This document shows positions 803-64,000 of a stretch of DNA of 64,000 bases, one piece after another. The notes under the pieces were generated by a model. That model was given only the letters and a program-made list of their open reading frames with translations. It was not told where the DNA came from and searched no databases. The stretch lies in the NCBI GenBank assembly GCA_020283715.1, contig JAIQCW010000066.1, forward strand, positions 62,001-126,000, written 5' to 3'. Within the stretch, counting starts at the first letter, position 1; every line of letters begins with the position of its first letter. The position numbers and the translations under genes are program-made. Origin of the DNA: Cytauxzoon felis. Lineage: Eukaryota > Apicomplexa > Aconoidasida > Piroplasmida > Theileriidae.

Positions 803-3058
803 ATGCCTAGATTAATACTGATTTACCTTTTATCATATACATTACATACATTTGCTCTAGTAAAGCATATAAACACCCTATTATCTATCAATATTACAGA
901 TGATAATGGACTACTCAATGTTGAATCCGTCGACGTTGTCAAGGACAAAGGTGCCGAAGAACGAAGTCAAACACATGATGAAGATACACACGGAAATGAT
1001 TGCGTAATGAATCAAATACTCTGCGCATTATCTGGCGCCAAAGGTGATAAATCAAATGCATGTATGAAATGTACTCAAATTGTATATGGAGAATCCAAAT
1101 GTCAAGATTTGGAACCAAAATTCCTAGATTTAACACCAGACTATTCATTCGAAGGCCTAACACCACTAAATATTGATTCAAAGGTACCACCAAATGATAT
1201 AATCGAAGCATTCGACTATGCTGTATGTTTCTAAACTAGACGTTTCAATTCTCCAGCACTCCATGAGCACTCATCATGATAGATTTTGCACAGATTATCA
1301 ATGCATTAGGTTAATGGATCCAAATAGCTGCATTTCACAATTACCCGCTCAAAATCAACTATCCTGGTTTGATGAGGTTTAGGATTCATCTTCACCCATT
1401 TCCATAGTGGATCATGCTGGATATTTGCAAATGTACTCCATCTAGAACTTTTGCTTTGCATGGAATCAAAGAACAAGAAAGCCGTCAAGATATCAGAAAT
1501 GTACATATCGTCTTGTCTTAGACTTAAAAATAGAGATGCATGCATGGGAGGTAACGCAATTGATTTCGCTGAAGTAATCTCAGAAAATAAATGTACGTCA
1601 ATCACTAATCTTCATTAATCCTCAGTTTTACCGTCAAAGGATGACCTAAAATATAATTTACCACTACAACACTGCCCAGCCTGGAATGAATCGTGGAGAA
1701 ATCAAAAGCCAAACATCGAGTTTATACCGCCTGGATCGTCATCATTAAACTCATTTCCAGGATATATACTGGTGATTTTCCAAACGAAAATGATGGACAT
1801 TTACAGATTAAATCAAGCGACTATATTCCAAATCGTAAGGAAGCATTAATCACACTAATCAAGGAAATTGTCAAAGAAAAGGGCAGTGTCGTCATTAGCA
1901 TGAAAGGCAAACAAGTACTGAAACCTGATCATGATGGAAGAAAAGTCTTTAGCCTTTGCCACCAAGGTAACGGGTATGTGGACTGAATTTAAGGAAGATA
2001 CTGCTATTCCACCGAAGGTTATACAGCCTCTCTTCGTCTTGCAGACAGCTTCTCCACTTGAGGTTACAACCACCGTTGGTCTTGCAGACAGCTCTTCTAA
2101 TTACTTCCCCCTCCGCTTCCCTGAGATCAGCTGCGGGATCCACTTGAGGTCCTGTACTACTCTTCATTCCACTTGAGGTTACATCCACAATGCCATCTTC
2201 ATTGCCACGATTTCTGGGAGTGGCATTACCGTTTACGGGGAGTGAATTAGAAGAGCTGACGGCAGGACTAAGAGAGCGGATTGGTCTGTTGGTAGAGGTA
2301 ACCTCAGGTGGAGACCTAACGGTCTTCGGATGGACCTCGGGTAGATGTAATCCGTGGGATGGACAACACCTCAGTCGTTTCACTTTTTCGTCTCTTTCCT
2401 TCACTCATACATCATCAGGACTCATGCGATGGTTATAATTGGTTATGGTGTGTATCAAAAGTCTAGGCATCGTAATTTGAAGCGTAAAAACAATGGTAGA
2501 TTTTGGATAATTAGAAATAGTTGGGGTCATAATTGGGGTGATGGTGGTAATTTCAAATTAGACATTGTAATTTTATATAGTATTTTTAATAGACTTTATA
2601 AATTATAGGATGGTCCTCCGGGTTGTAATGGTTATACATTTGAATATGCTGGTATGTAATGGAATAAATGAAATGATTATATAATAGTTGCATTAAATGT
2701 AAAAATTATCGAGAATATTGAAGAGGTACCACGTAGTTATATTCCTTATCGTAATTTAAATTCGAAAAGTTATAATCCATCTAGTATAGTTAGACCTTCA
2801 AATGGTATTACAAGGCGTATTAATGTAAAGTATGGAGATAAAGTATATACACGTGGTTTATTCATTGCAGATGATCAAGATTTTAATAAAGATGGTCAAT
2901 GTGCTAGAGCATTTTCAATTAGTGGTAAAAGACATGAAGATTGTAGAGATAAATGTATTGAAAATTTGGAAAAATGTATGAAATATAAAAGTGAAGAGAT
3001 TGGTTTATGTATATTTGCACAGACACAAGATTTAGATTGTATGATGTGTGGTGTATAG
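803..3058 (+). CDS. SERA-family papain-like cysteine protease (secreted)
   Basis: Multi-exon gene starting with a signal peptide (MPRLILIYLL...). Splicing introns at 1223-1256, 1367-1407, about 1593-1625, about 1720-1760, 1974-2418, about 2566-2608 and about 2655-2690 gives a full papain domain of SERA type. CGSCWIFA carries the catalytic Cys, CMGGNAIDF the substrate-side Gly-Gly, HAMVIIGYG the catalytic His and RNSWGHNWGD the Asn/Trp. Cysteine pairs precede the domain and a Cys-rich tail follows it, ending ...CMMCGV. SERA proteases of blood-stage apicomplexans act around egress from the host cell (family knowledge). The nucleophile is Cys, not the Ser of some SERAs, so it should be an active cysteine-type enzyme. 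The 445-nt intron 1974-2418 carries the palindromic repeat and interrupts the domain just before HAMVIIGYG; its GTATGT donor and CAG acceptor join in phase. Confidence 0.9.
1974..2418 (+). repeat. Palindromic modular element in SERA intron
   Basis: The intron holds element modules from about 2009 to 2375: two copies of the tag CTTGCAGACAGCT, the CCTGAGATCAGCTGCGG module, a CCACGATTTCTGGGAGTGG module, a CCGTTTACGG hairpin and the tag GCTGACGGCAGGA. The outer bases are an ordinary GTATGT donor and a CAG acceptor. Confidence 0.9.
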
Positions 3059-3072
3059 ATGAAGGAAGAATA

Positions 3073-3743: not shown

Positions 3744-3793
3744 TAATAATAATATACAATACTTGACATCTACACCCCTTTTTATTCTACACT

Positions 3794-4977: not shown

Positions 4978-7900
4978 GTGGTAGTTATGAATGATATATT
5001 ATTACACCTATCATCGGATTGTGTCAAGGCCTTGCCAGCCTTTATGTCATCTGCATTTGATGAAGAATCCAGGCAGTTCTTAGAGATTATTGATGAATAT
5101 TGGAGAGATGGTAAATGGACATTTTTGTTATCACATATTGATCGTTATTTACAATTTTCATTAGATGATAATACTATACTGTCATTAGATGCTATAGATG
5201 ATCTAATTCCTATCGTTAAACGTCTATGGTTTCTCTCCACATATGATGTAATCATAAATAATGACAATAATAAGATTAAACAAATATACCAAGATAATCT
5301 GGATATCATACAACATATTCAATTATATGAATCCGGTATTAATCTCAAGAAAAAAATACGATCACTCAAATTACTCGATAACCTACTTGATTCCATTCTA
5401 CAAATTCAACCCTCAGTTTGGGGTAAGTTTACATAATTCCACTCCACTTGAAGTCTAATCCACTCCACCTGAGGTCCAGTCCTGCCGTCAGCTCTTCTAT
5501 TTATCTCCCCTTCCAGCTCCCGTAGATCGCTTCCAGGTACTCATTTGAGGTCTCCACCTGAGGTCCAATCATTAACTTCCTTTTACCTCCAAAATTTGAA
5601 GAAAAATCTCAATTTCTGGGGAAACTAAGGAAAATATCTCAATGAATAATGGATGAAATTCTGATCTCAATACTTCATTGAAAAGGAATTTGATGATTGT
5701 ATTGAGTTTAATTATCCTTTCTTCATTGCAATTTATATTCATTGAGTTATCTCATCAAACATGAATTCCATCACTTTAGTCATATCTGATCGAAATAAGG
5801 TTTTAACCTCGAGTGGAACCTGGAAGCGATCTACGGGAGCTGGAAGGGGAAGTAAATAGAAGAGGCCACCACGGCGAGTGGCAACAGCAGGATGGACTTC
5901 AAGTGTAGTGTATATACTTCATATAATTTCATATAGAGTGTAATAGTGAGTTAATAAGTGATGTATTGAATAAAAAGTTGGATTTTATTGATATAAATGT
6001 ATTATTATTGATAATTGAGATGTATTATGATCGTACATATAAATCATCGATTCATACTAGTTCATCTAAAAGGCGTAGTTGGATGACTAATATTGTTCGT
6101 TTATCATCACGTATGAGAAGGTTATGGTTATATAGGGATGATATTGGTATGATGTTATTGGAGAGATTAATGAAAGATATAGATATAAATAGTAATAAGA
6201 TATATTATAAATTTCGTTTAATATTATTATTATGTCCTAATATAACAATATATAAGAATATAATAAATGGTAATATATTTAAATGGTGGGATATGATAAA
6301 TGGTGAATTAGTAACATCATGGAATTCATTAATGATAACATTATTATATCGTGGTATAAAATATGGTTGGGCTATTGGTAATCCATTATATAATAATATA
6401 ATAGATAGGATATCAATATTATTTAATATATTAATATTATCATTTGGTATACCAAATCGTATAAATATAATAAAATATAAAGAATATATACCAAATGAAT
6501 ATATAATATTATTAGAAAAAAATTTAAAATTTTTTTAAGAAATTTGGTAAATTTTTAGGATTAATAATACCACCAAAAAATGATGATGAGAAGAATAATA
6601 TAATATATGAATATATAATATCATTAATAAATATAATATATCCATATACACATCCATCTAATAATGGTAAATGGTCTATTAATATTGCTAATTTTATAAA
6701 ATATTTTATATTATCATATAGTAAAAGATTATGTCGTGAATATACAGGTTTACCTATTGTTAGATTAGAATGTGGTATGATTAATATAAAATATAATAAT
6801 AAATTATTATTAAATAATACAATATTTTTAATAAATTTATTTTATACATTATCATTACAAGGTATACATTCTAAAAATATACAAATTGTATATTCATATG
6901 AAGATATATTAAAACGTTTATGTTATTTACAACCATTACCATTATTAATTAATCTATTAGATGAATTATTATTATTATGTAATTCTATTACTGAACCACA
7001 ACAAATATTAATAGCATTACGTCTATTCTCACAATTAATGCCAATTATTATTAAATATACACCCAATTATCTTATACCTATACTCAATATTATACTCGAT
7101 GGTATTAATGCAGCAGATCCATTCAAAACCGTACAAACACTCACACTAGTCAATATCATATTCTCATATATACCCTGCCGAGATTTATCGAACATTATCA
7201 TCAATGATCATAACAAATCTATACTCGAATCATACTATCGTAATCATAATCGACATGTCGCGAAATATACTCCACCTGAGGTTCAACCGACGACCGTTAG
7301 GTCTCCACCTGAAGTTACATCCACCTCTGTTCCACTCGCCGTGGAGGCTTCTTTTAATAACCTATCCCTGAAGGGTGATGCCACTCCCAGAGATCGTGGC
7401 GGAAGTAGAGGTAGTGAAGAAGGTAGTGGAATGGAAGGTGATGGTAGTAACATGACCTCAAGTGGAGTACCCGCAGCTGATCTCAGGGAAGCGAAGGGTG
7501 AGATAAATGGAGAAGCTGTCGGCAAGACGACGAAAGTTGGAGGTGATGAAGTTGATATTGGTAAGGAAATCGATTGGACCTCAAGTGGAGAAAGTGGGGC
7601 AATGGGGTGTTATGGGGATAAAAAACCCCATGATAGTACTATTAGGTTTATAGGAACAGAGGGTAAAGGTAGTGAGTACATGACCTCGAGTGGAAAACCC
7701 GAGAGCGATCTCAGGGAGCTTGAGGGGGAAGTAAAAGGAAGAGCTGACGGCAGGACGACCTACGGTGGATCGCCGAGTGGAAGAGGTGACGATAGTGATT
7801 GGACCTCAAGTGTAGATACATCATCATTGACTTACAATTTATTTAAGTTACCATATGATGAGAGTGATTTATCATCATCGGATTCATTATGTATATCATC

Positions 7901-10900
7901 TCATTTTAAACATGTATTATTATTGGAGAGGGGTAATTTGGATGAATTTTCGTATAGATTGGATAATATTATAAGTGAGAGGCAATATATAACAAGTCAT
8001 TTATCATTATGGTGTCAGGATTGGTTTGAATGTATATTAAAATTATCGAGTCAATTAATAAAACCAAATATGGATACAAATTCATTAATGAATACTATAG
8101 ATGTTAGTATTTATATATTAATACGTTGTTCATTAATAACAATATTATCACAAGTAGATGATGATGTAATAAAAATAATATATAATCAATTTATAAAATG
8201 GATTATAAATAATATACCAAAAAATGATTCATTAAATTATGTTACATGTATATCAACATGTTTAAGTTATTGTAATCCAAAATTATGTATGGATATAATA
8301 TTTAAAAATTTATTTATAAAATTTAATAATGAATTTAATAATAATAATAATGAAATTAATAATGATAAATTAATTTTATATTTATATTGTTTTTCTGGTA
8401 TTATTAGATTTACTTCTATACATTTATTATCTTATTTTAATGATATTATTTTTATTATTAATATCGGTATTAAATCTAAATGTAAAAAAATATTTAAAAT
8501 TACAGCTAAATTATTACAACGATGTATTTATACACTATTAAATATCTATTTTATTGATTCTAATTGTATTCATAATTACAATCATCCATCTATACTATTC
8601 TGGGATATACCTTGGTTCTTACGTGACCTCTACTTTCATGATAATCATAATAATATACCCAATTGGCATATACCCACATTTATAGAAAAAATTACCGCTA
8701 TCAAATTCATCAATTATACCATCAATGTCATACTCAAACTTACACATAATGTACTCGGTAATCTCAAAATACCGAAGTTTTATAATCCACACGATGTTCA
8801 ACCGACGACCGTTAGGTCTCCACCTGAGGTCCAATCAACATCTGTCCCACTCGCCGTGGAGGCTTCTTTTAATAACCTATCCCTGAAGGGTGATGCCACT
8901 CCCAGAGATCGTGGCGAAGGTAGAGGTAGTGAAGAAGGTAGTGGAATGGAAGGTGATGGTAGTAACATGACCTCAAGTGGAGTACCCGCAGCTGATCTCA
9001 GGGAAGCGAAGGGTGAGATAAATGGAGAAGCTATCGGCAAGACGACGAAAGTTGGAGGTGATGAAGTTGATATTGGTAAGGAAATCGATTGGACCTCAAG
9101 TGGAGAAAGTGGGGCAATTGGGTATTATGGGGATAAAAAACCTCACAATAATGATAATAAACCCCATCATAGTCCCCATACTTCATCTGAAATACAAGTT
9201 GAAGGTAGTGATGGAAGTAGAGTTAATGATGTAACCTCAAGTGGAGGACCTCAGGTGGAACCCGAGAGCGATCTCAGGGAGCTTGAGGGACAACTAAATA
9301 GAGGAGGCTGTCTGCAAGAAGAAGATAAGGTTGTAACCTCGGGTGGAGATGATTACATTTCTGGCATGTCATTATTATGTAGATTAAACAGGGTATTGAT
9401 ATTATGTAGGTATTTACTAAAGAGTATGAAGCATTTTATGGTAGATGATAGAGAGATTGTGATTAAGGGTTTACCTAGGATTACTCCTATAGATGATTGT
9501 AATGAATTTATTGATATACAATTATTTATTAGATCTATTATATTGAGTATTATTGATGGTTATATTAAAGATGATGATATGGATATATTATTTAAGAATA
9601 GATTATTATATAAATTAATAAAGCTTATAGATTATTATTTATTACGTGATGTAAATATAAAAGATTATAATATAAATGATATAAAGAATATAATATATAA
9701 TATAAAACAAAATTGTAATATATATCCTACAATTACATGTAATAAAGGTATGTTGTTATGGTTATCATTTTATTATGGTATACATTATAAATCATATTGG
9801 CAAGATATATCTAGATTAACATTATTATCAAATATAATAGATAAATACTTGAATGTTATAAATATTAGAAAATATGGACATTATAATTGTGGGGATGATG
9901 ATGATATGATAATAATAAATTTATTAATAAAATATAATAATTATTATTATAATGAAATATCATTATATATAAATATAATTATAAAAAATTATATAATTAT
10001 AAATTTATATATAAAAAATTATATTATTTATAAATTATTTAATAATATTAATTTATATTTATATAATATTAATGATGATTTAAATTTAAAATCATTATCA
10101 ACATTACCAGATTGTTTATATCCAACATTTATAAATATTATTATTAATAATTATTATTATTTTAATAAATTTATTAATATTTTAATTTATATTATTACAA
10201 ATGCTAAAAATAAAGATTATCTTATTAATAAATTCGATAATCTATTCAATTTATTCTTAAATTCACGCCAAGTACAAAAGAATAATATAAAGTATACTAA
10301 TACTATTTATAATATACTCGTTAATCACATTAATAACATCACACATTGGAGATTACATTTATATACAACCGCTATTGTCGTCACCTTCAATTATCATCTC
10401 ATGATACAACATCTACCACTATATCTACAATGGCTCATCAAATCCACCAATCGTAATACACACACATCAATCATCACAATCGCCATATTCGCAATCACAC
10501 AATTAATCGCTAATTATATGATGAATTATACACCTGAGGTTACATCCACTCCACCTGAAGTTACATCCACCTCTGTTCCACTCGCCGTGGAGGCTTCTTT
10601 TAATAACCTATCCCTGAAGGGTGATGCCACTCCCAGAGATCGTGGCGAGGTTAGTGATGGATCATCCATCATGGGAATGATGGAAGATGGTGCTAAGGAT
10701 GTGTTGGATGTGACCTCAAGTGGAATACCCGCAGCTGATCTCAGGGAAGCGAAGGGTGAGGTAAATGGAGAAGCTGTCGGCAAGACGACGAAAGTTGGAG
10801 GTGATGAAGTTGATGTTGGTAAGGAAATGGATTGGACCTCAAGTGGAGAAAATGGGGCAATGGGGTATTATGGGGATAATAAACCTCACAATTATAATAA

Positions 10901-13900
10901 TAAACCCCATGAAATACCTGTTATACAAGTTGATGATGAGTACATGACCTCAAGTGGAAGTGGAAAACCCGAGAGCGATCTACGGGAGCTGGAGGGGGAG
11001 GTAAATAGAGGAGGCTGTCTGCAAGACGGACGTAAGGTTGTAGATGGAGATGAAGGTAATGATTGGACTTCGATTGGAATGGATGGTATTTGTGATAGGG
11101 GTAGTATAGGTGTTGTTGGGCCATTATTTTCATTTACTGATGCTTCTTTGGTGATACCAATTCTTCAGAGTCATTTATGTAATGAGTATGTGGTGGATCT
11201 TTTATTGAATGCTTTACCATTTATTAATCATGAGAATGTTAAACAGACTCCATCATCATCAACATCAACAACTATTAATTCCATTATAAATTCTGTAATA
11301 AAATTGGAGAATACTTTAATTACAAATAGGATTGCATTAAATTCTAATACTTTATCATTACACAATTTATTATTTTCTATTAATTATATCCATTTTCTAA
11401 TTAAATTTAATGGGTAAGTGATTGAATATACATTTAATTTGTTAATGATATAGGATACAATTTTTACATGTTATTATTAATGTACTCGATGAACTCTCCA
11501 ATACATCACCCACAAATTGCCCTGAAAATCATATAGGTAAATTCATCATCAATCATCACTCGAATGACCACAGCCTTTATCGAGATTTGCGGAGGATTAT
11601 TAAAATCTACAGTCACACTACCTCAATACAATGATAATATCTGGAAATCATTATATCCAACACTCGTATGTTGAATGAAAATAGTTATACCACCTGAAGT
11701 CCTCCACCTGAGGTCCAATCACTATCTTCACCTGAGGTCCAATCCGACTCTCTTCACCTGAGGTCCAATCCGACTCTCTTCGTCCTGCAGACAGCTTCTC
11801 TATTTACCTCCCCCTCCGCTTCCCTGAGATCAGCTACGGGTAGTCCACTTGAGGTCCAATCTAAAACACTTCCGCCACGATCTCCGGGAGTGGCATTACT
11901 CTTTAGAGATAGGTAATTGGAAGAGCTGACGGCAGGACCAACAGTGGTTGTAACCTCAGGTGGAGAGCTGTTCATCCGGGTAGAATTTTCTGTTCTTATG
12001 GTTTGAATTATTGAAGAATTTTCCTCGGTCCCCTTAGTTACAATTATCCATATGAGGACTTGAGAATATAAACATGATATAATGTCATATAATCACTGAA
12101 GTATTGAATAGAAATTCAAACCTGAAGAATTGACCTCCACTTGAGGTCTATCTCTTCCACTCGCCGTGGAGGCCTTCTCTATTTACTTCCCCTCGGATTC
12201 CCGTAGATCATCCTCGGTATTCTACCCGGAAGAACGAAAAGTGTAACCCATAAGAACAGGAATTCCACACGGAGGAACGTGAAGGTAATAATGTAACCTC
12301 AAGTGGAAGTGGAACCCGTAGCTGATCTCAGGGAAGCGGAGGGGGAAGTAAATAGAAGAGCTGACGGCAGGAGAACGCGAGGTTGTAACCTCAGGTGTTT
12401 ATAAACTTCATATATAATTATATAGAGGCATGAGTTGGATATAATAACGCAGGAGAGGATATTGGATTTTATGGATATGTTGCGTGTGATATTATTGGAT
12501 TATGATATTAATGATAATGATTTATATATACCTATATTTAATTTAGCTATGGATTATACTAGAGATATTGATTTAATGAATTATGTGGTATGTTTAAATG
12601 ATATGAAATTAAATTAATTATTATAGCCTATTTTATTAATAAAAAATAATGATAATACTGCTGGTTATAGTTTACAGATTGTAAAGCAATTGAAATTATA
12701 TAAAGCTATAATACAACAATTATATTGTAAGAATATAATTATTATACAACGTTTATTAAATATATTATTAAATAATGATACAATATTTAATAATTCACAA
12801 CAAATTCGAGATGAAATTGGTTATTTATATTCACTTGTTATATATTTATGTTCAAATACAATAAATAATAATGTTTATAAAGATGAAATTTATAAATTTA
12901 TATCAAATATGATAAATATTATTAATGGTATGTTTGAAGAGAAGAGGTTTGAAGAGAAGAGGTTTGAGGAGAAGTTGTTTGCACTACCTTCGGTAGATGT
13001 AACTTCAGTACTACTCTTCATTCCACTCGCCTCCACTTGAGGTCTTGCAGACAGCTCCTCTATTTATTTCCCCCTTCGCTTCCCTGAGATCAGCTACGGG
13101 TTCCACTCGAGGTCCAGTACTAGTCGTCATTCCACTCGCCGTGGTGGCCTCTCTATTTACCTCACCTCGACTCCCATAGATCGTCTCGGATAATCCACTT
13201 GAGGTTACATAACTACTACCTCTATTATCGCCACGATCTCTGGGAGTGGCTCTACTCTTTAGAGATAGGTAATTAGAAGAGGCTCCACGGCGAGTGGAAG
13301 AAGAGTTGGATTGGACCTCGGGTGGAGAGCTGTCTGCAAGACCAACGGTGATTGTAACCTCAGGTGGAACGGCAGGATGAAAAGATGTTAACATTCTTCA
13401 ATATAGATGATGATGATGAAGAAGAAGATTATAAAATTAAAGGTTTATTATCTATAATTGGTTTATTATATTCATTATCAATGCCAATAATTGATTTAAA
13501 ACATTGTTATACATCACAATATTTTGAATTTTCATTAAAATATACTAGACATTCTAATATAAATATAAATGAATTAGCTACAAAAGCTATACATAATATA
13601 GCATTAACATATTATTATATTAATGATAATAAAAATTGTATTGAAGATTTAATAAATATTATTATTAAATATAGTAAAAGTAATTATTATAAATTAAAAA
13701 TTAATATTATTAATGTATCAGAGGTTAATTTTCATATCATATCATACCACTCCATTCATTCACTCTATAGATTTTACAAAGAAATATGTGTATGTATATT
13801 AAAAAAACTAATATAGAAGATATGCTTTTAACCATGTATATTACATTATTAAAAGATAATAATGTTAGAGAAATAGCAAAAAATGCACTCGCATCTATAG

Positions 13901-14994
13901 CCATCTCTACTAATAATATCATCTATAATAAATTAACCAATGAATTCAATAATATGATCAAATCCAATAATCTAGATTTAATGATTACAGGTGTTACAGG
14001 ATTAGCATCATTAATTTCTACAGCACCCTATCATATACCCGATTGGCTACCAAATACACTAGTCACACTTGTATGTAGAATGTGTTATACAAATAATCAA
14101 TTTATAGGCCAATTGCGGTAGCTATAAATACCCACATAATATCAGAGTATGTTGAACAAACGTAACCGAAGGAAGTATGACTGAGGTGTTGTCCACTCGA
14201 GGTCCAACCGACGACCGTTAGGTCTAGGTCCACATCTTCTCCACTCGCCGTTCCACCTGAGGTCTTCCCACTCGCCGTGGAGGCCTCTTCCTTTTACTTC
14301 CCCTTCCAGCTCCCGTAGATCGCTTCCAGGTTCCACTTGAGTTCATAAACCTTATTTCAGCGAGATAAGGATAAAGTGACGGAATTCATGTCTGTGAAGA
14401 TATCTCAATGAAGACGATATGGAATGAAGTGAGGATGAAAAATCCAATACAATCATCAAATTCATCTTCAATGAAGTATTGACATTAGAAATTAATTAAA
14501 TATTCATTGAGTAATCTTCAGTAGATTCCCCAGAAATTGAGGATTTCCTTCAAATTTTGGAGGTAAAAATGAAGAAGTGAAATACAGTGATTGGACCTCA
14601 GGTGGATCCCGTAGCTGATCTCTGGGAAGCGGAGGGGGAAGTAAATAGAGGAGACGAAGGTAGTGATGGATCATCCATCATGGGAATGATGGAAGATGGT
14701 GCTAAGGATGTGTTGGATTGGACCTCAAGTGGAATACCCGAGAACGATCTCTGGGAGTTTGAGGGGGAAGTAAATAGAAGAGCTGACGGCAGGAGAACGC
14801 GAGGTTGTAACCTCAGGTGGAGTGTCAATATACATTGATATAATAATAATCTTTAGAACATAGTGCAGCGTTCATTGCAGGATTTTTTCAAATCTCATAT
14901 GGATGCGTGGTCGAGGATACATGTGAATAAGTTTACAAGGCAGCAGCTCGATGTATTAGACATGTATAAGGGTTGTCCTGTTTATTTTAATTGA
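4978..14994 (+). CDS. Proteasome activator BLM10/PA200 (PSME4-like)
   Basis: A very large HEAT-repeat gene. Conserved blocks of the BLM10/PA200 family can be read in order: PYTHPSNNGKWS near 6650, LPLLINLLDELLLLCNSITEP near 6940, LNIILDGINAADPFKTVQT near 7085, and at the C-terminus GVTGLASLISTAPYHIPDWLP (13990-14055) followed after an intron by QRSLQDFFKSHMDAWSRIH and a terminal Y-F-N like the family's Tyr-Tyr-Ala proteasome-docking tail. Introns include 5423-5936 (514 nt, phase preserved), one near 11415 and several repeat-bearing ones up to 14868. Three repeat copies near 7266-7820, 8790-9350 and 10530-11080 are open in frame and may be translated. A T7 run at about 6530-6537 shifts the frame by one base. 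The very last junction is one base off in my reading and needs transcript data. BLM10 caps the 20S proteasome in the nucleus/cytosol. Confidence 0.85.
5440..5915 (+). repeat. Modular element with 235-bp core in BLM10 intron 1
   Basis: Left arm CCACCTGAGGTCC, tag CTGCCGTCAG and AGCTCCCGTAGATCGC modules. Then comes the 235-bp core (5577-5810, forward), then the mirrored arm ending in the tag CCACGGCGAGTGG. It lies inside the 514-nt intron 5423-5936. Confidence 0.9.
7266..7820 (+). repeat. In-frame modular element copy 1 in BLM10
   Basis: Starts CCACCTGAGGTT and ends GATTGGACCTCAAGTG. Open in the host frame throughout, encoding PPEV..., [22 protein letters not shown] and DWTSSG motifs. There is no GTATGT/GTAAGT donor in the preceding exon, so it may be exonic; a TGTAG acceptor just after it leaves splicing possible. 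Confidence 0.85.
8795..9350 (+). repeat. In-frame modular element copy 2 in BLM10
   Basis: Nearly the same module order as copy 1, in the same reading frame (PPEV, LSLKGDATPRDRG, DWTSSG), with extra proline/histidine/asparagine-rich sequence around 9140-9200. Host sequence is C-rich to the left and G-rich to the right. Confidence 0.85.
10535..11080 (+). repeat. In-frame modular element copy 3 in BLM10
   Basis: Third in-frame copy, containing the GATGGATCATCCATC palindrome module (about 10658-10700) that is also found at 14665, 58730 and the window's left edge. No GTA-type donor lies in the exon just upstream. Confidence 0.85.
11700..12400 (+). repeat. Two modular elements in BLM10 intron(s)
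   Basis: One unit lies at about 11700-11975 (tag CTGCAGACAGC, CTCTTTAGAG hairpin, GCTGACGGCAGG). A second lies at about 12130-12395 (tag CCACTCGCCGTGG, CCCGGAAGAACG module, GCTGACGGCAGG). They are separated by unique AT-rich sequence. Confidence 0.85.
12985..13375 (+). repeat. Modular element in BLM10 intron
   Basis: Contains the tags CTTGCAGACAGC and CCACTCGCCGTGG and their mirror images, plus the GCCACGATCTCTGGGAGTGGC hairpin and CTCTTTAGAGATAG. Flanking exons resume the BLM10 frames. Confidence 0.85.
14175..14825 (+). repeat. Modular element with inverted 235-bp core in last BLM10 intron
   Basis: Left arm with CCACTCGCCGTGG, then the 235-bp core in reverse orientation (about 14348-14580), then a right arm with GATGGATCATCCATC and GCTGACGGCAGG. 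It sits between the GLASLISTAPYHIPDW exon and the terminal docking exon. Confidence 0.9.
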
Positions 14995-18100: not shown

Positions 18101-19158
18101 AATAAAAGGAAAGTTATCAATGTCAAACAACTCGAAAATGAACTCTGTGTCAATCAAAAAACACTCGATGAAATACTCGATACACTAATCAATAACAACT
18201 TCCCAATACTCATCAAAAATGGACATGTATGTCACACTTTCTTCCATTCAACAATACACCTGAGGTCGTCTTTCCACTAGCCGTGGAGGCCTCTTCTAAT
18301 TACTTCCCCCTCCGCTTCCCTGAGATCAGCTGCGGGTTCCACTTGAGGTCTAGACTCGTTGAGGTGTATACGAATGAGTTGAAGAAGTCAAAGTGTGAAT
18401 GTATACCGAAACTATCATCTACATCAGGTTACGATACTGTAAGAATAATAGGAACAATAACCCCTAAGAGGTGTGGATTCCCATACATTAAATGTATACC
18501 GTGTCCCTGTTGTGAATATGATTATCTAAAATGTTTGAAAGATGTCTACCCGGAAGAACGAAGAATATTAACCCCTAAGAACAGGAATTCTACCCGGAGG
18601 AACAAATGATGTTAGTGATTGGACCTCAAGTGGAACCTGGAAGCGATCTACGGGAGCTGGAAGGGGAGCTAAATAGAAGAGCCACCACGGCGAGTGGAAG
18701 AGGTGAAGATAGTGATTGGACCTCGAGTGGAGTGTACAAACCTCATTCACGTCGTTATATTAATATATAGAACATTGAGGTGAATAGTAATTTGGTTAGT
18801 AGTCAGGATGTAACTTCATCTATTCATAAATCTACTGATCAAGTGACATATAATGGTGAGTTGTTTAATATGGTTATATTGAATATTAGAAAATGTACAA
18901 GAACAATCTACTGTTGATTTCATTAATTTGGATGCTTTAATTGTAAAATATTTGAAACAGCATTCTAAAACATCATTAGATCAATTAATAGATCATATAA
19001 ATACGACTAGTAAGATAAAATATAATAATGGGGTGCGTAAATGAGGATAAATGGATTTCATCAAATTTCTTTTTCAGGTGATAAATGAGCGAATATCGAG
19101 TTTGAAGGATCGTGAGTATATAATGGAACTTGAAGATGAATTGGTGTATATACCATAA
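15107..19158 (+). CDS. Cullin (ubiquitin-ligase scaffold)
   Basis: Multi-exon gene starting 112 bp after BLM10. N-terminal cullin repeats are visible: REYITYYT spliced to LVYDMCTQ, then LILNNWIKYKRYINIIKGIFAYLDRF (15600 region), the family's W-x-K...YLDR signature. A later block, ELYLCGNSRDLLVNIVL (16550) and the 17870-18230 exon (ASILLLFNKRKVINVKQLENEL), matches the cullin-homology domain. The C-terminal winged helix reads DALIVKYLKQH, corresponding to the NEDD8-acceptor IVRIMK region with its Lys conserved, and ends with SSLKDREYIME...YIP. Cullins link RING/E2 to substrate adaptors. Introns near 16015-16490, 17485-17880 and 18240-18735 carry palindromic elements. The gene ends two bases from the stop of the opposite-strand carrier. 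I cannot assign it to a cullin subclass. Confidence 0.85.
16015..16490 (+). repeat. Modular element in cullin intron
   Basis: Shows tag CCATTGCATGG on the left, CTCTAAAGAGTAGAG and TGATCTCAGGGAAGCG modules, and tag CTGTCTGCAAGACG on the right. The outer arms are CCACTCGAGGTCC and GGACCTCGAGTGG. Confidence 0.85.
17485..17880 (+). repeat. Modular element in cullin intron
   Basis: Contains the tag CTGCCGTCAGC, the CTCTAAAGAG hairpin, a CCGGGTTGAA/CCGGGTAGAATTCC block, a GTTTTTATCCCC block and the mirrored tag CCACGGCGAGTGG. Confidence 0.85.
18240..18735 (+). repeat. Modular element with VESA-derived cargo in cullin intron
   Basis: Arms with CCACTAGCCGTGG and its mirror CCACCACGGCGAGTGG flank the coding-like cargo at 18350-18605. 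The cargo lies on the same strand as the cullin. Confidence 0.85.
18350..18605 (+). pseudogene. VESA1-like antigen fragment (cargo copy 1)
   Basis: An 85-residue open stretch reads [17 protein letters not shown] ... [19 protein letters not shown]. It parallels LIEEYTRQLNGNKKCEC ... CCKYNYEDCLKDGYKCG of the VESA gene at 43288-44517. The intervening part is shorter and different. A nearly identical second copy is at 25480-25775 in a LeuRS intron. No start codon or gene structure of its own. A dispersed donor segment for antigen variation is possible but is inference. Confidence 0.7.
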
Positions 19159-19160
19159 GA

Positions 19161-20120
19161 TTAGTGATTATTATTGTATATTTTAAATGCGCGTGCGATA
19201 TTGACAAGAATGAATTCATAGATGGAGAACATGATACCGCCGCTGATCATAGATCTGAAGACTTGTAATTGAAATCCAGCATATAATCCTTTAATACTAT
19301 TATTTTTTGCATTCCATTTTATAATACTTCTAATTGGTAAATGAGATATTTCAGTTTGACAACATTGTTGCATAGTTCTACTAACATATAAAGGATAAGT
19401 AATAAAGGTTGGTACAAGTCTTGATATAACACCATTAGTAAATGGTTGTAATGATTGATAAGGTGATAATAATTTATAATCATTCCAATTAATTTTAGAT
19501 AATGAATCATATAATGTAATTAATATAGCATGATTAGGTGTTGATGATAATGAAACAGATATACCGATAAAATTACTACGTATACCACCAGTTTTAAATG
19601 TATGTATAAGATAATGTATAGTACCACGATATTGTGGCCAACCATCTATTTTTGTTTGACCACTTTGTAATTCTATAGCTAATTTAGCATTCCAAAATGG
19701 ATGTAATATAATACTTGATAATAAACTACTTATAGTAGCTCTTATCATATTATTTTTTACATCATCTGTATTCTTAAAATAATTAAATTGTCCAATAGCA
19801 TCATAAAAATATCTAAATGTTAACCAACCTAAACTTGATACAAATATTGATGATGAACTACCTCTATAACATGATAATATACCATCTTTCTTAAATAATT
19901 TTAATAGCGATATCAATTTATAATTATTCTTTTTATTAATACCATGATCATATACATTCAATGACTGTAATTGAGTACGTAATACCGCTATAGGCTGGAT
20001 TAAAAAATTAGTTATACCAGCAGCAATAGCATTAGCTACAGCCGTCAATGTAGGATGTGTCTTTAACTTGTCTACATTATCATATCCCGACTCTACAACA
20101 ACCTTTTCTTTATCAACCAT
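19161..20120 (-). CDS. Mitochondrial carrier family (SLC25) transporter
   Basis: A single-exon 319-residue protein with the three-fold carrier repeat. The odd-helix signatures are visible as QPIAVLRTQLQ (about residue 42), HPFWNAKLAIELQ (about 142) and YPLYVSRTMQQ (about 248), each with Pro plus a downstream basic residue. The acidic residue of the canonical PxD/ExxK/R is replaced (Ala, Trp/Asn, Tyr/Val), so it is a divergent member. RG-type motifs follow (CYRGSSSS, LYAGFQ). Inner-membrane solute exchange is expected; the substrate cannot be read. Intronless and free of the palindromic repeats. Tail-to-tail with the cullin, stops two bases apart. Confidence 0.85.
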   Translation of the reverse strand: MVDKEKVVVESGYDNVDKLKTHPTLTAVANAIAAGITNFLIQPIAVLRTQLQSLNVYDHGINKKNNYKLISLLKLFKKDGILSCYRGSSSSIFVSSLGWLTFRYFYDAIGQFNYFKNTDDVKNNMIRATISSLLSSIILHPFWNAKLAIELQSGQTKIDGWPQYRGTIHYLIHTFKTGGIRSNFIGISVSLSSTPNHAILITLYDSLSKINWNDYKLLSPYQSLQPFTNGVISRLVPTFITYPLYVSRTMQQCCQTEISHLPIRSIIKWNAKNNSIKGLYAGFQLQVFRSMISGGIMFSIYEFILVNIARAFKIYNNNH

Positions 20121-43280: not shown

Positions 43281-43287
43281 AGTCCAG

Positions 43288-44831: not shown

Positions 44832-47800
44832 TTATCCTTCATCGAATCTGCCATCGAATCCGCAGAATCCTGTTAGTAAAAAGACGGGGAAGTAGATTTT
44901 ATCTTCAATTTTGGAGCACCAATTCCATGCTGATGTTAATCGACCATCTATACAGCTACCAGCATCATTAAAATTATCTGCACCACTACCATCAAACGCA
45001 TGTCTAAAAAAATCCGTTAATATTATCATCTTCAAATTTTTCGGTCCACCAAATTGTGCATCTATATATTGCTTCATCGATGCAGTAGATTTATATAACT
45101 CGGGTATCTTATCAATACAAGTGACAATAGGGCTCAATATACGAGGTATCTATATATGAAAATAATTAAAAAGAATATAGAAAATAAGATTTAGTCTAGT
45201 CCATATGAAGTCCAATCCTACTCTCTTCGTCTTGCAGACAGCTTCTCTATTTACTTCTCCCTCCGCTTCCCTGAGATCAGCTACGGGTTTATCGCCACGA
45301 TCTCTGGGAGTGGCTTTACTCTTTAGAGATATGTAAATGGAAGAGCTCTCTGCAAGAGGAAGGTAAGGTTGTAACCTCAGGTGGAATAGATAACAATTTA
45401 TGAGATTCCTTCGTACATACTTGTGTGTATTTATCGATGAACATGAAGGCGTTGGGTACATTATGATCACCAAGATGGATAGAATTTGATCCGATCCAGG
45501 TACCTACTGATTGTTGTACTCTTCTTAATATTTTTCTCATTCCATTAAGTACATTTGGGCATTCTTGTACACGATTAAGACCTTGTCCTGTATTTCTTAA
45601 TCTATATGGATTATTAGAATCTAATAAATCACATTCAGAAAAATGCCATAATGCAAACATTTCATGTGCAATTTCACGCCATAATGATAATGTCTGTAAC
45701 ACATAAGTAAATTGTCGAGAATGATTATGACTTAAACGAGAACCCTCATAACCAACATTAATCGATAAATTATATTTCGGATTTGAATCAATAGGATTAA
45801 AATTATCACGCAAATACTCAATCATCTTATCACAAGGTCTACGAAATGCACGCAAATGAGCATGATGATCCGACATCGAATATATACAATTCTGAACCTC
45901 ATCCACCGTCATCTCGTTGTCATTCATTACATCACCAGACAGAGTCTGAAATCCACGAGTCAAAAATGAAAAACCTATAAAAGTTTTATATACATATCGA
46001 ATGAATACTTCCACCTCCACCTGAGGTCCAATCGACATCTTCTCCGCATTTCCTTCGTCTTGCAGACAGCTCTCCACTTGAGGTCCATCTTTTCCATTGC
46101 ATGGAGCTTCCTCTATTTATCTCCCCTTCCAGCTCCCGTAGATCGCTTCCAGGTTCCACTTGAGGTTATAAACCTAATCTCATCGAGATACATCTAAAGT
46201 GACGAAATTCACAAAAGTAGGATATTTCAATGAATATAAATTAGAATGAAGTGAGGATGATAGTATTATATGAAGCAATACTGTCCCTCTTCAATGAAGT
46301 ATTGACATCAGAAATATATCCAATAGAAATTGCACAATCTTCAGTAGTTTCCCAAGAAATTCAGGATTTCCTCAAATTTTGGGGGTAAAAATGAAACTAG
46401 TGAAATTAGTGATTGGACCTCAGGTGGAGACCTCAAGTGGAACCCGTAGCTGATCTCAGGGAAGCGGAGGGGGAAGTAAATAGATGAAGCCTCCACGGCG
46501 AGTGGAAGAAGAGTGTGGATGTAACCTCAGGTGGAGCAGCTATATGTTTCTTCATCAATGAACATACCAATGATGCCACTATTTGGTCTTTTTACAGCGT
46601 ATTTATTGGTTAGATATTTGATGGCGTTTTCTTTGAGTGTGATATCATGTTGTATTTGTGATCTAGTTTTTCCTTCGGGTGATATTTCTAGAATATGTAA
46701 TGATGATGTATTGATTATAAAATACCCATTGTAGCGATTGGTAATTTAGGATCGAATAATAATGCAAGTCCATTTTTTTTAGTAGATAAGAAATTATATA
46801 CAGTATTAACTGGTGCTACACAATCGAAATTTAATAATTCTTGTATATCAGGCTTTCTTGAATCCATTAAAAAGTATATTAATTTACCATAAGAATTACG
46901 CATACGATCAGGATTTAAAATTTTATAACGTCTACCAATTTCAAATATATTACGAAAAAATTCAGAATTTGTATGATAATCACGATCTTTAACCAAACGT
47001 TGACCAGCTTCATAATTATGTGCAATAGCTAAACCACTTAATATAGCTGATACCTCTTTTATTTCACGTAATATTATACGTGATTTACTACTTTCATGTA
47101 TAATATCAACTTTATCTGTATATTCACTAACATGAAATGTACTATCCAATAAACGCATCAATTTACGCTCCTCATATGTTAATCTTATAGGTGTATACTT
47201 TGCTACATGCTTATAATATTCACAATCAGCAGCACGCTCCTTTAAATCAACATTCACTACTTCACCATCATCCACTTTAGGCTGATCATCCAATAAACTA
47301 ATACCTGTCGCCACATCAGTCGACATCTCCGGATCAAGAACCTATATAATATAAATAACCAAACTATAAAATAAACAAGATATACTCCAGCCGAGGTTAC
47401 AACCAGTGTTCCACTCGCCTCCACCTTTCCTTCGTCTTACAGACAACTCTTCCAATTACCTCCCTCTAAAGAGTAGAGCCACTCCCAGAGATCGTGGCGG
47501 TGAGAAGGTAATGATTGGACCTCAAGTGGACTACCCGAAAGTGATCTACGGGAACTTGAGGGGGAAGTAAATAGAGAAGCTGACGGCAGGAATGTAACCT
47601 CAGGTGGAGAGCTGTCTGCAAGACGAAGGAAAGGTGGATTGTAACCTCAGGTGGAGCTGCAAGAGGAAAGGTGATGACGAGTTTTACTGTGCATCCACCT
47701 TTTTAAATTATTATGAATTTAACTTACATGTTTGGAGTAAACTTCGGGTACATTGGTCTTGAGAATGTCTAGGATATTACATTTAGTTGAGATATTATTG

Positions 47801-47988
47801 ACAACTATAAGATGAAATGAATAATGATATGATTAATAAATACCTTTATATAATTCATTTTTATCTAAACTATGTAAAATATCAATTACATTTGATATAT
47901 TGGTATCTTCATTATTATTTGTTTGGGTATCCTCCGGTTGCGATTCTATAGTATCCAATAATTCTGATAATTTATTACGTTGAGCCAT
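44832..47988 (-). CDS. DUF2009 (UPF0652) family protein
   Basis: Six or more exons. Start at 47988 (MAQRNKLSELLDTI), a short exon near 47730-47800, then HVSEYTDKVDI, LREIKEVSAILSGL, FEIGRRYKILNPDRMR and IYFLMDSRKPDIQELL, splicing PIATM to EISPEGKTRSQIQ. Intron 46567-45975 (593 nt) joins RPNSGII to GFSFLTRGFQTLSGDV in phase. The last exon carries GSCIDGRLTSAWNWCSKI and FLLTGFCGFDG, the hallmark end of DUF2009. The family is conserved across eukaryotes and has no established biochemical role that I know. Three introns (about 47726-47343, 46567-45975 and about 45418-45152) carry palindromic elements. Divergent from cyclin H across 177 bp. Confidence 0.85.
45195..45390 (-). repeat. Modular element in DUF2009 intron
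   Basis: CTTGCAGACAGC, CCTGAGATCAGCTACGGG, CCACGATCTCTGGGAGTGG, CTCTTTAGAG and GTAACCTCAGGTGG. Splicing joins FIDKYTQ to IPRILSPIV. Confidence 0.87.
46010..46540 (-). repeat. Modular element with inverted 235-bp core in DUF2009 intron
   Basis: CTTGCAGACAGC, CCATTGCATGG and CTCCCGTAGATCGC modules, inverted core at about 46168-46405, then TGATCTCAGGGAAGCGG and CCTCCACGGCGAGTGG. Host intron 45975-46567. Confidence 0.9.
47380..47670 (-). repeat. Modular element in DUF2009 intron
   Basis: CTCTAAAGAGTAGAGCCACTC, GATCGTGGC, GATCTACGGGAACTTG, GCTGACGGCAGG, CTGTCTGCAAGACG and two GTAACCTCAGGTGG arms. Confidence 0.87.
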
Positions 47989-50031: not shown

Positions 50032-50034
50032 ATT

Positions 50035-52869: not shown

Positions 52870-53305
52870 TCCACTTACCGTTCCACCTGAGGTCAATCTT
52901 TTCCATTGCATGGAGCTCTTCTATTTACCTCCCCTCGGATTCCTGTAGATCATCCTAGGTATAATGTTAACCCGGAAGAACGTAGATATGTCAACCCATA
53001 AGAACAGGAATTCTACCCGGAGGAACAAAAGGTGTTAACCCCGAAGAACAGACATCTCTTCCACCTGAGGTCGGTCTTGCAGACAGCTCTTTTAATTACC
53101 TATCTCTAAAGAGTATAGCCACTCCCAGAGATCGTGGCTGAAGGTAGTGATTCGAGTGTAGTTAATACTGGACCTCAAGTGGAAGTGGAACCTGGAAGCG
53201 ATCTACGGGAGCTGGAAGGGGAGATAATTAGAAGAGCTCCATGCAATGGAAAAGATTGACTTCAGGTGGAAGCTGACGGCAGGAAAGACCTCAGTCGTTA
53301 CATTC
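52870..53305. repeat. Intergenic modular elements (two units)
   Basis: Unit 1 (52870-53050) has CCATTGCATGG, TTCCTGTAGATCATCC and the ACCCGGAAGAACG/ACCCGGAGGAAC blocks. Unit 2 (53055-53305) has CTTGCAGACAGC, CTCTAAAGAG, GATCTACGGGAGCTGG, CCATGCAATGG and GCTGACGGCAGG. Confidence 0.85.
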
Positions 53306-61249: not shown

Positions 61250-62019
61250 TATTATTAGGTAGAGGTCTAGGTTTTACAGTACAATTTAGCGGCAAAAAGC
61301 GTCATATATACTAAAAATTTGCGGGGTATAAATAATTTAATCGTAATTAATAAATATTTATATCAATGAATTAAATATAAATTCCATATACAAGTTGATT
61401 TAAATTTTAATTGTAATGTATTAGTTTATATCATTAACATCTCTTGAATGCTTCAATCTCCATCGAGACGTGAATCTCTAGAAGTATAGCGAGGCATAGT
61501 GGAGATGGACGAAGTCTCGATGGAGATTGAAGTTACTAGGGAGTTAAATGATGTAATATAGAGATTTCATGAAGACTATAATCGTCATAAATACATCTAG
61601 AAAATTATTAAATCGCATCATGTTGTTGGTTCAAAGTCAAGTTTGAGATTACAGAAGGTTGGACATGGATGGAATCATAAATATCTAATCAATATAGAGA
61701 TGATACTTAATTTAAATATAAATATTTCATAATTAAATGAAATGGTAATTAATCAAGGATCAATCTTTAAACATCGATCATCAACCATCTCGAATATTGT
61801 TACATTGGGCGTGGTATTGATGAACTTCGATGTCATCTTAAAATTTCTAGACAGATAAATTTGTATAAATAATTTAATTTAAATTTATAATGTATAATGT
61901 GTCTGTGTTTATATAATATAGTTTTTTTTATCTTGTAAAATGTACTTGTAGAAAAATATTTATTTGATGGGTGGTTATTGGTGATCTTCCTGGATGATTC
62001 GGCTTGATTTATTCATGTA
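61250..62019. other. AT-rich intergenic region with a long hairpin
   Basis: Between HAP2 (minus) and the PHD gene (plus). Mostly AT-rich with no coding frame. It contains the perfect 19-bp inverted repeat at 61452-61533. Confidence 0.55.
61452..61533. repeat. Long perfect inverted repeat (hairpin)
   Basis: CTTCAATCTCCATCGAGAC at 61452-61470 is matched perfectly by GTCTCGATGGAGATTGAAG at 61515-61533, with a 44-nt loop that can pair further (AATCTCT with GGAGAT). Not one of the dispersed modules. Possibly a small structured RNA or regulatory hairpin. Confidence 0.7.
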
Positions 62020-64000
62020 TTGATGATTGAGGATATAAAGATGGCGGATGAGGTTGATGTGAATGTTGTTATAGATGGTGGTCAGGATGATGTAATGGAA
62101 CTTGATCAACGTATATCTTATGACTATAAGATGGATGATAAGGTACAATCTGATTATATATCAGCTTTGATAAGATATGATACATTGAAATCATTAATGG
62201 GTGATGGTTCATTTTCTGGTATTGGTTATAGTGTTAAAGATGATGATGGTATTGGTGACATTGCTGATGCTGATTTCGGTATTAAATCTTGTAATTGTGA
62301 TTTAGGTATTAATTTATCTATATTTCATAGTATAGATTATGATTTTATATTTGATGATGTTAAATTAGATGATATTATTATACCTAATATAGATAATATA
62401 TTATGTGATGTTTGTTTCAATGTTATTTTATATGATGAATGTACTTGTATTCATTGTAATATAAAATTTCATAATAAATGTCTTAATTATGGAATTAATT
62501 GTAATAAAATTGTTTGTGAAATATGTAAATATACTAAAGAAAATGGGGTTCCAAGTGGGGATATAAAATGTGGTATATGTAATTTATCAAATGGTTTAAT
62601 GAGATATGATGGTAATATATGGTTACATTATAGTTGTATATATTATCTACCAGATGATATGAAGAAGTTTGTTGACGTTCAGCACAAGGATAGCAGAGAA
62701 GATGATATAAAGAAGATAGGTTTTAATACTTGTAATAACATCAATAATAAATGTTATATATGTAATTTAACAATAGGTATTACTATACCATGTAATTATA
62801 TGAAATGTTATAAATATTTACATAGTCGTTGTGTATATAATAATAAACCCCATAGTTTATGTTTTAGCACTATAATAAATTATAAATTAAATGATAAAAA
62901 TATTATATATTTAAAGGTATATTTTGTAATGAACATAATAACCCCATAATAATTAAAGAATCTATAATAAATATAATAAAGAAAAATTTTATAATAAAAA
63001 TTATTATATAAATGGTAATAGTAATTATAGTAAATATAATAATGCTATTAATGAATTATATAAATTATATACAAATCATAATATAAATAAACCAATACTT
63101 AATACACATTTAAATATTAATCCACCCGATATATTAGAACATTATAATAGAAATCAAAGAACTAAACGTAAATTAAATGATCTTATCGATTATTATAATA
63201 AAAAAAATCATACTCTCAATGATAATAAATCTATACAGCCATATACACTCACCATCAATACACATAATGTAAATACTACTCATATCGATTATAATTTACC
63301 CGAAGTTAATACACCCAACACCAAACGCTCCATACGAAGTCGTCCACTCGAGGTCCAATCAAACTCTCCACCTGAAGTCCAATCCAACTCTTCTTCCACT
63401 CGGCGTGGAGCCTCTCCACCTGAGGTTACAGCCTCTGATCCCACTCGGCGTGGAGCCTCTTCTAATTACCTATCTCTAAAGAGTAATGCCACTCCCGGAG
63501 ATCGTGGCGAAGGTATTTATCGGACCTCATGTGGAGAACCTGGAAGCGATCCACGGGAGCTGGAAGGGGAGGTAAATAGAGAAAGCTGTCTGCAAGACGA
63601 CGATAAGGTTGGAGATGGTGAAGTTAGTGATTGGACCTCAAGTGGAGACATGGGGGTAAAAGAGGGTTCTGGGGATAAAAAACCTCATAAAAAGAATGTA
63701 CCCCATGATAAAGATAATAAACCCCATGATAGTCCCCATAATTCTCCACCTGTGGTCCAATCCAACTCTGTTCCACTCGCCGTGGAGGCCTCTCCCAATT
63801 ATCTATCTCTAAAGAGTAAACCCACTCCCGGAGATCGTGGTGAAGGTAGTGATGTAACCTCGAGTGGAAAACCCGAGAGCGATCTACGGGAGCTTGAGGG
63901 GGATGTAAATAAGGAAGCTGACGGCAGGACCTCAAGTGGAGTTGGAAAGACATCGGGTATGAAATATATGGATGATATATGTGTTAAGAGTATGGATGTA
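62020..64000 (+). CDS. PHD-finger/extended-PHD chromatin protein (3' end outside window)
   Basis: The first exon encodes an acidic N-terminus, then a PHD finger (ILCDVCFNV...CTCIHCNIKFHNKCL...CEICK). An extended-PHD module follows: KCGICNLSNGLMRYDGNIWLHYSC with CYICNLTIGITI and LHSRCV. This PHD-knuckle-PHD order is that of BRPF/JADE-type histone-reading subunits of acetyltransferase complexes. Around 62930 the frame changes at a probable intron, after which FCNEHNNP would complete the zinc ligands. A later exon (from about 63100) stays open to the window end through two tandem palindromic elements (63340-63960). The protein is therefore incomplete here. Confidence 0.75.
63340..63960 (+). repeat. 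Two tandem in-frame modular elements in the PHD gene
   Basis: Two complete units in the same PPEV...DWTSSG frame as the BLM10 copies. Unit 1 at about 63340-63650 has CCACTCGGCGTGG, CTCTAAAGAG and CTGTCTGCAAGACG; unit 2 at about 63747-63945 has CCACTCGCCGTGG and CTGACGGCAGG. No stop codon occurs from about 63120 to the window end. Confidence 0.85.

Follow-up and report, generated by a model that had tools for sequence, protein, structure and literature searches.

The locus considered here raises the question of whether repeated palindromic elements assembled from short modules keep their modules as fixed sets or exchange them among copies. The window, a stretch of 64,000 nucleotides from the piroplasm Cytauxzoon felis (assembly GCA_020283715.1, contig JAIQCW010000066.1, positions 62,001 to 126,000), contains many dispersed copies of a GC-rich element composed of facing arms, each carrying one of four short interchangeable modules, the tags. 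Comparison of these copies with others from the same genome demonstrated that tags associate at random between arms and that variable hairpin stems are altered pair by pair or module by module, not by gradual drift. The elements probably form a lineage-specific, non-autonomous palindromic family which dispersed in the past through the genome of a piroplasm close to Theileria and whose modules are randomised by short copying tracts.

Abundance and architecture of the elements

The analysed assembly, which holds the window, comprises 8,623,106 bp in 181 contigs; the published C. felis genome is described as 9.1 Mb with 31.8% GC in 361 contigs (PMC3748084), and the GC content of the window is about 32%. 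The core CCACCTGAGGTCC matched the window at 115 sites with at most two mismatches, compared with 0.33 in dinucleotide shuffles (largest count 2). In the whole genome the exact sequence CCACYTGAGGTCC occurs 2,370 times (1,179 and 1,191 by strand), the exact B-arm hairpin 2,071 times (1,016 and 1,055) and the exact A1 hairpin 2,066 times (1,009 and 1,057), and the reversed patterns used as controls gave 0. When a cluster was defined as a stretch with three or more modules, 58 clusters with 86 arms were counted in the window, covering 9.6 kb and spanning 2036 to 63939. A 292-kb sample, in which the window was pooled with 228 kb from the same genome, yielded 184 clusters and 310 arms, the clusters constituting 11.3% of its length. 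Scaling the exact genome counts by this sample gives about 3,200 B-arms and 4,900 A-arms, about 8,000 arms in all. The original prediction, made from the window alone, had proposed about 40 copies of a dispersed mosaic family; the family is real, and its shared core, the core variants CTTGAGG and CTCGAGG and the list of named modules were all borne out, whereas the number of copies was underestimated.

Two types of arm were distinguished. The A-arm has the order H, tag, linker CTCTTCTATTTACTTCCCC, hairpin, H, and the B-arm has the order H, tag, linker CTCTTCTAATTACC, hairpin CTCTAAAGAG, hairpin GCCAC...GTGGC. As had been predicted, the four tags (GTCTTGCAGAC, CTGCCGTCAG, CCACTCGCCGTGG and CCATTGCATGG; the letters K, V, W and P are used below) substitute for one another in a single slot, which adjoins the fixed linker. 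The main hairpins of the 310 arms have in common an almost invariant 11-base loop, TCCCnnAGATC, carried on five types of stem (GCT/AGC, AGC/GCT, GGAT/ATCC, GAC/GTC and GCCAC/GTGGC). Extra layers of H and tag are sometimes stacked outside the elements.

The arms combine in a distance-dependent manner. Of 93 pairs of arms that face each other across less than 130 bp, 87 are A-B, and five of the six exceptions contain an arm with a GAC/GTC stem and an A-type linker which had initially been classed as B. These five arms are further A-type arms, and with this correction 92 of the 93 pairs are A-B. The first classification underlies the figures given below for tag pairing and association, spacers, stem covariation, divergence, element folding, coding-strand orientation, long open reading frames (ORFs), codon phase and the ratio of nonsynonymous to synonymous polymorphism (pN/pS). 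Arms 130-220 bp apart formed three A-B pairs and one B-B pair, those 220-330 bp apart were A-A in all 27 cases, and those 330-600 bp apart were A-A in three of five. In 26 of the 27 A-A elements of 220-330 bp, a homologous AT-rich core lies between the arms in either orientation (class Y); the remaining one is a composite with a cysteine-rich (Cys-rich) core at 18.3 kb. A third type of core, about 90 bp long (ATGGGGATAAAAACCTCAC ... CCCCATAACATACC), was also observed between arms, four of its five copies in the window lying within a long ORF.

Tag pairing, duplicated loci and hairpin stems

The original prediction held that the tag of one arm is often mirrored on the other, which would point to replication by arm copying. 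Pairing was tabulated in the 79 of 87 A-B elements in which a tag could be called for each arm. The inner tags were equal in 23 of the 79, compared with 24.6 expected from shuffling (contingency p = 0.996); the outermost tags were equal in 28 (contingency p = 0.15); and in 40 elements any tag of the stacked arms was common to both arms (35.8 expected, p = 0.18). A-A elements gave equal tags in nine of 27 cases, with 7.9 expected. Among exact tags lying 125-155 bp apart in the whole genome, counts which include a few outer tags of stacked elements, there were 75 K/K pairs, 52 V/V pairs and 123 mixed pairs (57 K/V and 66 V/K), almost exactly the 74.5, 51.5 and 123.9 predicted by random union. 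Mirrored tags were thus rejected at both scales, which leaves the copying of whole arms unsupported. The 30-nt spacers outside the tags were likewise not mirrored, neither in A-B elements (9.30 versus 9.08 shuffled, p = 0.25, n = 84 of 87) nor in A-A elements (9.23 versus 9.53, n = 28). The tag was independent of the type of A-hairpin over all A-arms (p = 0.24), and its sole strong association was with the two bases right after the outer H (p = 0.0002). This random pairing argues against subfamilies that spread together with their tags. The prediction had named as its refutation simple drift of a single ancestral miniature inverted-repeat transposable element (MITE) with no excess of matched tags. 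The excess is indeed missing, but drift does not take the place of the prediction, because tags and hairpin stems are replaced as entire modules or entire pairs.

Duplicated loci differ in their tags. The two Cys-rich composites at 18.3 and 25.5 kb can be aligned from the left linker through the Cys-rich core to the right linker, yet both tags differ (V versus W at the left, V' versus K' at the right). In a second duplicated locus (9.7 kb on contig C37 and 44.7 kb in the window) tag P stands against tag K, and on one side the alignment breaks at the seam between tag and linker. Five further copies of the composite, taken from 46 genome matches to window positions 18340-18630, carry K, V, V, K and P in the left slot and have two hairpin types, and the seven copies together show all four tags in this slot. 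Two of them, on contigs C95 and C26, have cores that are identical over about 200 bp and nevertheless carry V and P; single recent duplications therefore exist. The Cys-rich coding core has an A-arm at its left in all seven aligned copies and a recognisable right arm in six. In a Pack-type (gene-capturing) element, arms would enclose captured exon sequence in several dispersed copies, and the composite would be a candidate for this class if the unit moves.

The composites touch a Cys-rich multigene family, members of which were noted at 43273-44517 (+), 54133-55257 (-), 18363-18545 and 25500-25680; two of its ORFs were scanned and gave no Pfam match. Exons resembling this family are flanked by A-arms, and more copies are present on contigs C141, C95, C153, C30 and C26, which may indicate a route of exon dispersal for the family. 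A second dispersed repeat, CTACCCGGAAGAAC...CCCCTAAGAACAGGAATTCTACCCGGAGGAAC, lies at 18545-18622, 25674-25795 and 52950-53060, and most of the 46 genome matches mentioned above cover only this repeat.

Stem covariation was assessed in 112 of 118 B-arms, consensus outliers having been dropped. In the CTCTAAAGAG stem one pair is either TA (55) or CG (27) and the next is either CG (66) or GC (14), and no one-sided intermediate of these two pairs was found among 83 distinct rows. The A stems had 60 double-change cells compared with 24 in shuffles, such cells not being independent events.

Elements in introns and long open reading frames

The positions of representative elements and of the genes that contain them are summarised in Table 1. 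In the DUF2009 gene each of the three long introns (2, 4 and 5) contains one element, and introns 1 and 3 (39 and 38 nt) contain none. In all three element-bearing introns the GT and AG lie outside the element, and for this gene the idea of an introner with splice sites within the H core was rejected. The PSME4 gene resembles this pattern: all four long gaps between its tblastn exons (about 5427-5909, 11665-12426, 12914-13403 and 14070-14839) contain elements, whereas the short gaps do not. The elements may accordingly be a reason for the two intron size classes seen in the two genes examined.

Table 1. Elements of the palindromic family in the window and the genes in which they lie
Feature	Position	Strand	Composition or remark
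Complete A-B' type example	24271..24478	+	H - tag V - linker - A hairpin - H - B' hairpin - linker' - tag V' - H'
Complete A-B' element	22536..22751	+	tags K/K', extra outer tag W
Class-Y element	31799..32286	+	tags V and K'; class-Y composition: A-arm, ~260-bp AT-rich core, A'-arm
Cys-rich composite	18274..18730	+	A-arm (tag V) - Cys-rich coding core - A'-arm (tag V')
Duplicate of the 18.3-kb composite	25308..25895	+	tags W and K' at same positions
DUF2009 (non-canonical E2-like) gene	44832..47988	-	five GT-AG introns, 609 aa spliced, PF09418 E 4.3e-193
Element in DUF2009 intron 2	47434..47654	-	intron 47727-47342, 386 nt
Class-Y element in DUF2009 intron 4	46017..46534	-	intron 46567-45975, 593 nt
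B-A' element (gene-strand reading) in DUF2009 intron 5	45225..45384	-	intron 45420-45150, 271 nt
PSME4/PA200-like proteasome activator gene	4987..14991	+	four element-bearing exon gaps, three in-frame inserts
Class-Y element, first long PSME4 exon gap	5444..5881	+	
Nested element, PSME4 exon gap	13033..13367	+	includes GAC/GTC-stem A-type hairpin at 13172
Insert 1, ORF 6528-11417	7272..7813	+	B sense, A antisense, in frame
Insert 2, ORF 6528-11417	8820..9346	+	
Insert 3, ORF 6528-11417	10551..11027	+	
Two consecutive elements, ORF 62957-64117	63344..63939	+	ORF extends beyond window end
~90-bp third core type	7591-7682, 9106-9201, 10849-10946, 16258-16350, 63648-63743		

The long exon of PSME4 is an ORF of 1,629 amino acids (aa) with three element inserts. 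Between the aligned blocks at inserts 1, 2 and 3 there are about 194, 204 and 216 codons, compared with about 25, 22 and 6 residues in PSME4 of Babesia bigemina. Sites 1 and 2 are naturally variable, since PSME4 of Theileria orientalis has longer linkers there. The open frame together with the orthologue comparison of this one gene suggests that the element segments are exonic, in which case they would be translated.

In the 292-kb sample, 59 of the 310 hairpin modules lie within 18 ORFs of at least 250 aa, and 53 of them, in 15 ORFs, are either A antisense or B sense. By the first classification there were 32 antisense and two sense A-arms and 21 sense and four antisense B-arms; three of the latter are A-type arms with the GAC/GTC stem, and the corrected counts are 35 to 2 for A and 21 to 1 for B. 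All 32 antisense A-arms are read in one codon phase, and all 21 sense B-arms in one. Copies within one ORF are not independent, and the nominal p value was given no weight. This orientation is explained in part by stop codons: the used frame of the B-arm is open in 102 of 118 copies and its best reverse frame in 43. The hydrophilic peptide read from the elements is probably also selected, because openness does not set the two sense and antisense readings of the A-arm apart: its unused sense frame is free of stops in 175 of 192 copies and its used frame in 165. Outside the long ORFs 34 of 73 copies are in phase, a weak excess over the expected one third (p = 0.013). Enrichment of the elements in open frames was rejected; an open frame extended by 60 nt contained the entire cluster in 42 of 184 cases, compared with 43-46% of random non-element placements, and the clusters are depleted overall.

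The pN/pS of the A-arm in the used frame was 0.33 for the 32 copies in long ORFs and 0.41 for 153 of the 158 others, below about 95% of the column-shuffled controls (mean 0.87, 5% points 0.40 and 0.44). For the B-arm the used frame gave 0.74 and 1.21, no sign of purifying selection, and an unused frame gave lower values (0.50 and 0.56), for which reason purifying selection in the used frame is suggestive only.

The stretch 24266-24481, which contains the type example, folds with -94.1 kcal/mol as RNA (z-score -6.7) and -44 as DNA (z-score -5.7). Of the 79 eligible A-B elements 44 were sampled; the mean z-score was -6.5 for the 16 whose tags match and -3.2 for the 28 whose tags do not, compared with -0.5 for 30 random windows. 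Selection of a whole-element fold is unlikely, because folding follows tag matching, and matching is not favoured.

Origin of the family and comparison with known systems

The flanks of 21 bounded clusters showed no target-site duplication (direct repeats averaged 2.67 versus 2.64 shuffled), although old copies could have lost it, and direct flank repeats were not in excess (13.61 versus 13.84 shuffled). Inverted flanks scored above the 99% level in three of 124 elements, with 1.1 expected, and all three alignments consisted of element modules; inverted host DNA as a rule was rejected. Two loci, C8:27272-27487 and C4:101241-101482, have possible inverted host flanks of about 20-30 bp that score at or below the 99% shuffled level. 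Class-Y cores are 74-79% identical in pairs (21-26% mean divergence) and arms 76-83% identical within type, which indicates that the copies, taken together, are not of recent origin and rejects the idea that arms are better conserved than cores. The RVT_1 search of the assembly gave two matches only, in one ORF that also contains Telomerase_RBD, i.e. the telomerase gene (G000:C56:73693-74436), and no other reverse transcriptase, as SINE or LINE retroelements would call for, was detected by it.

In the reading that we consider likely, the family dispersed in the past in a MITE-like manner, its enzyme now being absent or unrecognised. Modules would have been exchanged among many copies by short-tract copying, either gene conversion or template switching during replication, with tracts ending in the shared linker and core, and tags would thereby have reached linkage equilibrium. 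An insert that folds on itself may be tolerated in introns, and in the tolerated reading only a hydrophilic, stop-free peptide would be added to a protein, which may explain why the elements persist. Several observations weigh against this reading. The evidence from seams consists of two duplicated pairs and one composite family; it is standing variation in one assembly, the exchange itself being unobserved. A third duplicated set (25.0, 54.3 and 76.7 kb) breaks at the core H and not at the tag, and the identical tract of the C95 and C26 copies stops within the arm, not exactly at the tag. A weak association connects the tag with the arm type, A or B (p = 0.013, Cramer V 0.19), and, in the 79 pairs, with the hairpin of the A-arm that bears it (p = 0.03). 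There is no sign of strong homogenisation, since conservation is no higher in arms than in class-Y cores. Pairing of the A stems extends over only about three positions, the fourth being unpaired in 37 of 48 distinct rows, and the GCCAC/GTGGC stem of the B-arm is nearly invariant and shows no covariation beyond shuffles (two double-change cells versus 0.8). In favour of the reading, the Y1_Tnp and rve profiles had no match in the genome, a search confined to these two transposase families.

A bolder version of this reading, which we regard as possible but rather unlikely, is a modular hairpin system that spreads and reshuffles in a nuclear genome without a dedicated transposase, in which each slot (tag or stem) is copied and replaced independently by template switching at shared linkers until linkage equilibrium is reached over thousands of loci, and in which arms would move coding exons about and add peptides to conserved proteins in a fixed frame. 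A conventional MITE family, mobilised by a class II transposase and with tag types as subfamilies that diverged before the spread, would account for the inverted arms, the thousands of copies, their dispersed positions and the divergence of the class-Y cores. Such subfamilies should keep their tags together across arms and with the hairpin type, whereas tags were found to be (nearly) independent of both; together with the lack of target-site duplications at the bounded clusters and the empty rve and Y1_Tnp searches, which leave the other class II families aside, this makes the MITE explanation unlikely in our opinion. A function at the RNA level is more doubtful still. The fold of the pre-mRNA might shorten the effective length of introns or regulate processing and be selected, as the low folding z-scores and the presence of elements in all three long DUF2009 introns and all four long PSME4 gaps could suggest, but matched tags should be in excess if the whole fold were selected, the stems contain few G-U intermediates, and outside long ORFs elements occur in both orientations with respect to the neighbouring coding sequence.

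Arm-copying replication, in which one arm serves as template for the other, is very improbable. The two pairs of the CTCTAAAGAG stem that vary as complete pairs resemble hairpin-templated correction over 10-20 nt, and the possible inverted host flanks of the C8 and C4 loci would fit it as well; however, neither tags nor spacers correlate between the arms, and the inverted flanks above threshold are element modules. The least credible explanation is an artefact of assembly, in which chimeric joins at repeats randomised the tags. The elements are repeats and the assembly consists of 181 contigs, yet misjoins at the required rate would scramble genes, and the coding sequence flanking ten element-bearing places (three DUF2009 introns, four PSME4 gaps and three inserts) stays in order.

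The elements were compared with known palindromic systems. With MITEs they have in common that they are short and non-autonomous, with inverted arms, high copy number and stable folds; they differ in lacking target-site duplications and any Y1_Tnp or rve match, in the non-identical, modular A and B arms and in the reassorted tags. Introner elements also reside in introns, but here the splice sites lie outside the element in all three DUF2009 introns. Double-hairpin elements (DHEs) are known from fungal organelle genomes, and repetitive extragenic palindromic (REP) elements are associated with a Y1 transposase, to which no match (Y1_Tnp) was found here. Bacterial REP-type sequences are described as short tagged palindromes of high copy number (PMC3733652), a likeness to the present elements. 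The repetitive hairpin-forming elements (RHEs) reported from sponge mitochondria (PMC2800124) share with DHEs and with our elements a series of hairpins that multiplies within a genome. The present hairpins are GC-rich and serial, and compensatory stems occur in CTCTAAAGAG and the A stems, not in GCCAC/GTGGC. Unlike the mitochondrial systems, the present elements are nuclear, lying in spliced genes of the main assembly, and have a fixed A/B architecture with a four-way tag slot. The coding palindromes described from Nematomorpha mitochondria are perfect inverted repeats, and their arms code for residues of the host protein that are conserved (PMC6649704); both systems place inverted repeats within protein-coding genes, but the segments found here are additions that are absent or far shorter in orthologues.

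The closest likeness of the in-frame copies is to Rickettsia palindromic elements (RPEs), described as sequences some 150 bp long that encode a conserved peptide and are scattered over unrelated genes, with nearly half of the copies in ORFs (PMC10969869). Here, too, palindromic elements lie in frame within unrelated ORFs. The RPEs are bacterial, whereas the host here is a piroplasm, and the present elements, set apart without direct comparison of RPE sequences, are nuclear and have a two-arm grammar, swappable tags, intron copies, thousands of copies and cargo cores. They would be a nuclear counterpart of RPEs, with in-frame copies in one orientation. Overall, the family resembles RPEs in ORFs and MITEs or double-hairpin elements elsewhere, and each of these comparisons fails in at least one of the defining features that were tested. 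No description of modular hairpin elements was found in the open-licence literature of PubMed Central, subscription papers lying outside this search, in agreement with the original statement that no described apicomplexan nuclear element of modular-tag architecture was known. The view of dispersed, modular, hairpin-based mosaic elements in the nuclear genome of a piroplasm is supported; the A/B grammar, the intron location, the oriented in-frame copies and the composites with coding cores were newly noticed, and of the earlier reading it is the mirrored tags that did not stand.

According to a 2022 survey of 64 apicomplexan genomes, C. felis, T. parva, T. annulata and T. orientalis are all free of transposable elements and the four piroplasms with any have less than 1%, MITE candidates having been dropped as probable false positives (PMC9141347). 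Here, clusters of a single family make up 11.3% of the 292-kb sample. The family may provide a natural record of module exchange, in which models of template switching and gene conversion are directly testable, and in gene annotation segments derived from it may be miscalled or missed as exons. Searches for relatives were negative for one exact 33-base A-arm pattern in bacterial and archaeal contigs, one exact 23-base pattern in viral contigs and one 216-bp element in plasmids; the peptide encoded by the elements, queried with one region, was found in none of 1,196 candidate proteins at E 0.01, and Rfam and tRNA scans of the window had no hits.

Two minor observations concern the surroundings of the elements. 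A palindromic stretch, TCCATCATTCCCATGATGGATGATCCATCA, recurs at 1-60, 10650-10700, 14640-14700 and 58690-58790, in three of four cases beside or inside elements. The ORF at 19161-20171 encodes a mitochondrial carrier with eight matches; the closest named one comes from Theileria equi (56% identity), and wherever an organism is given for the rest it is Theileria or Babesia.

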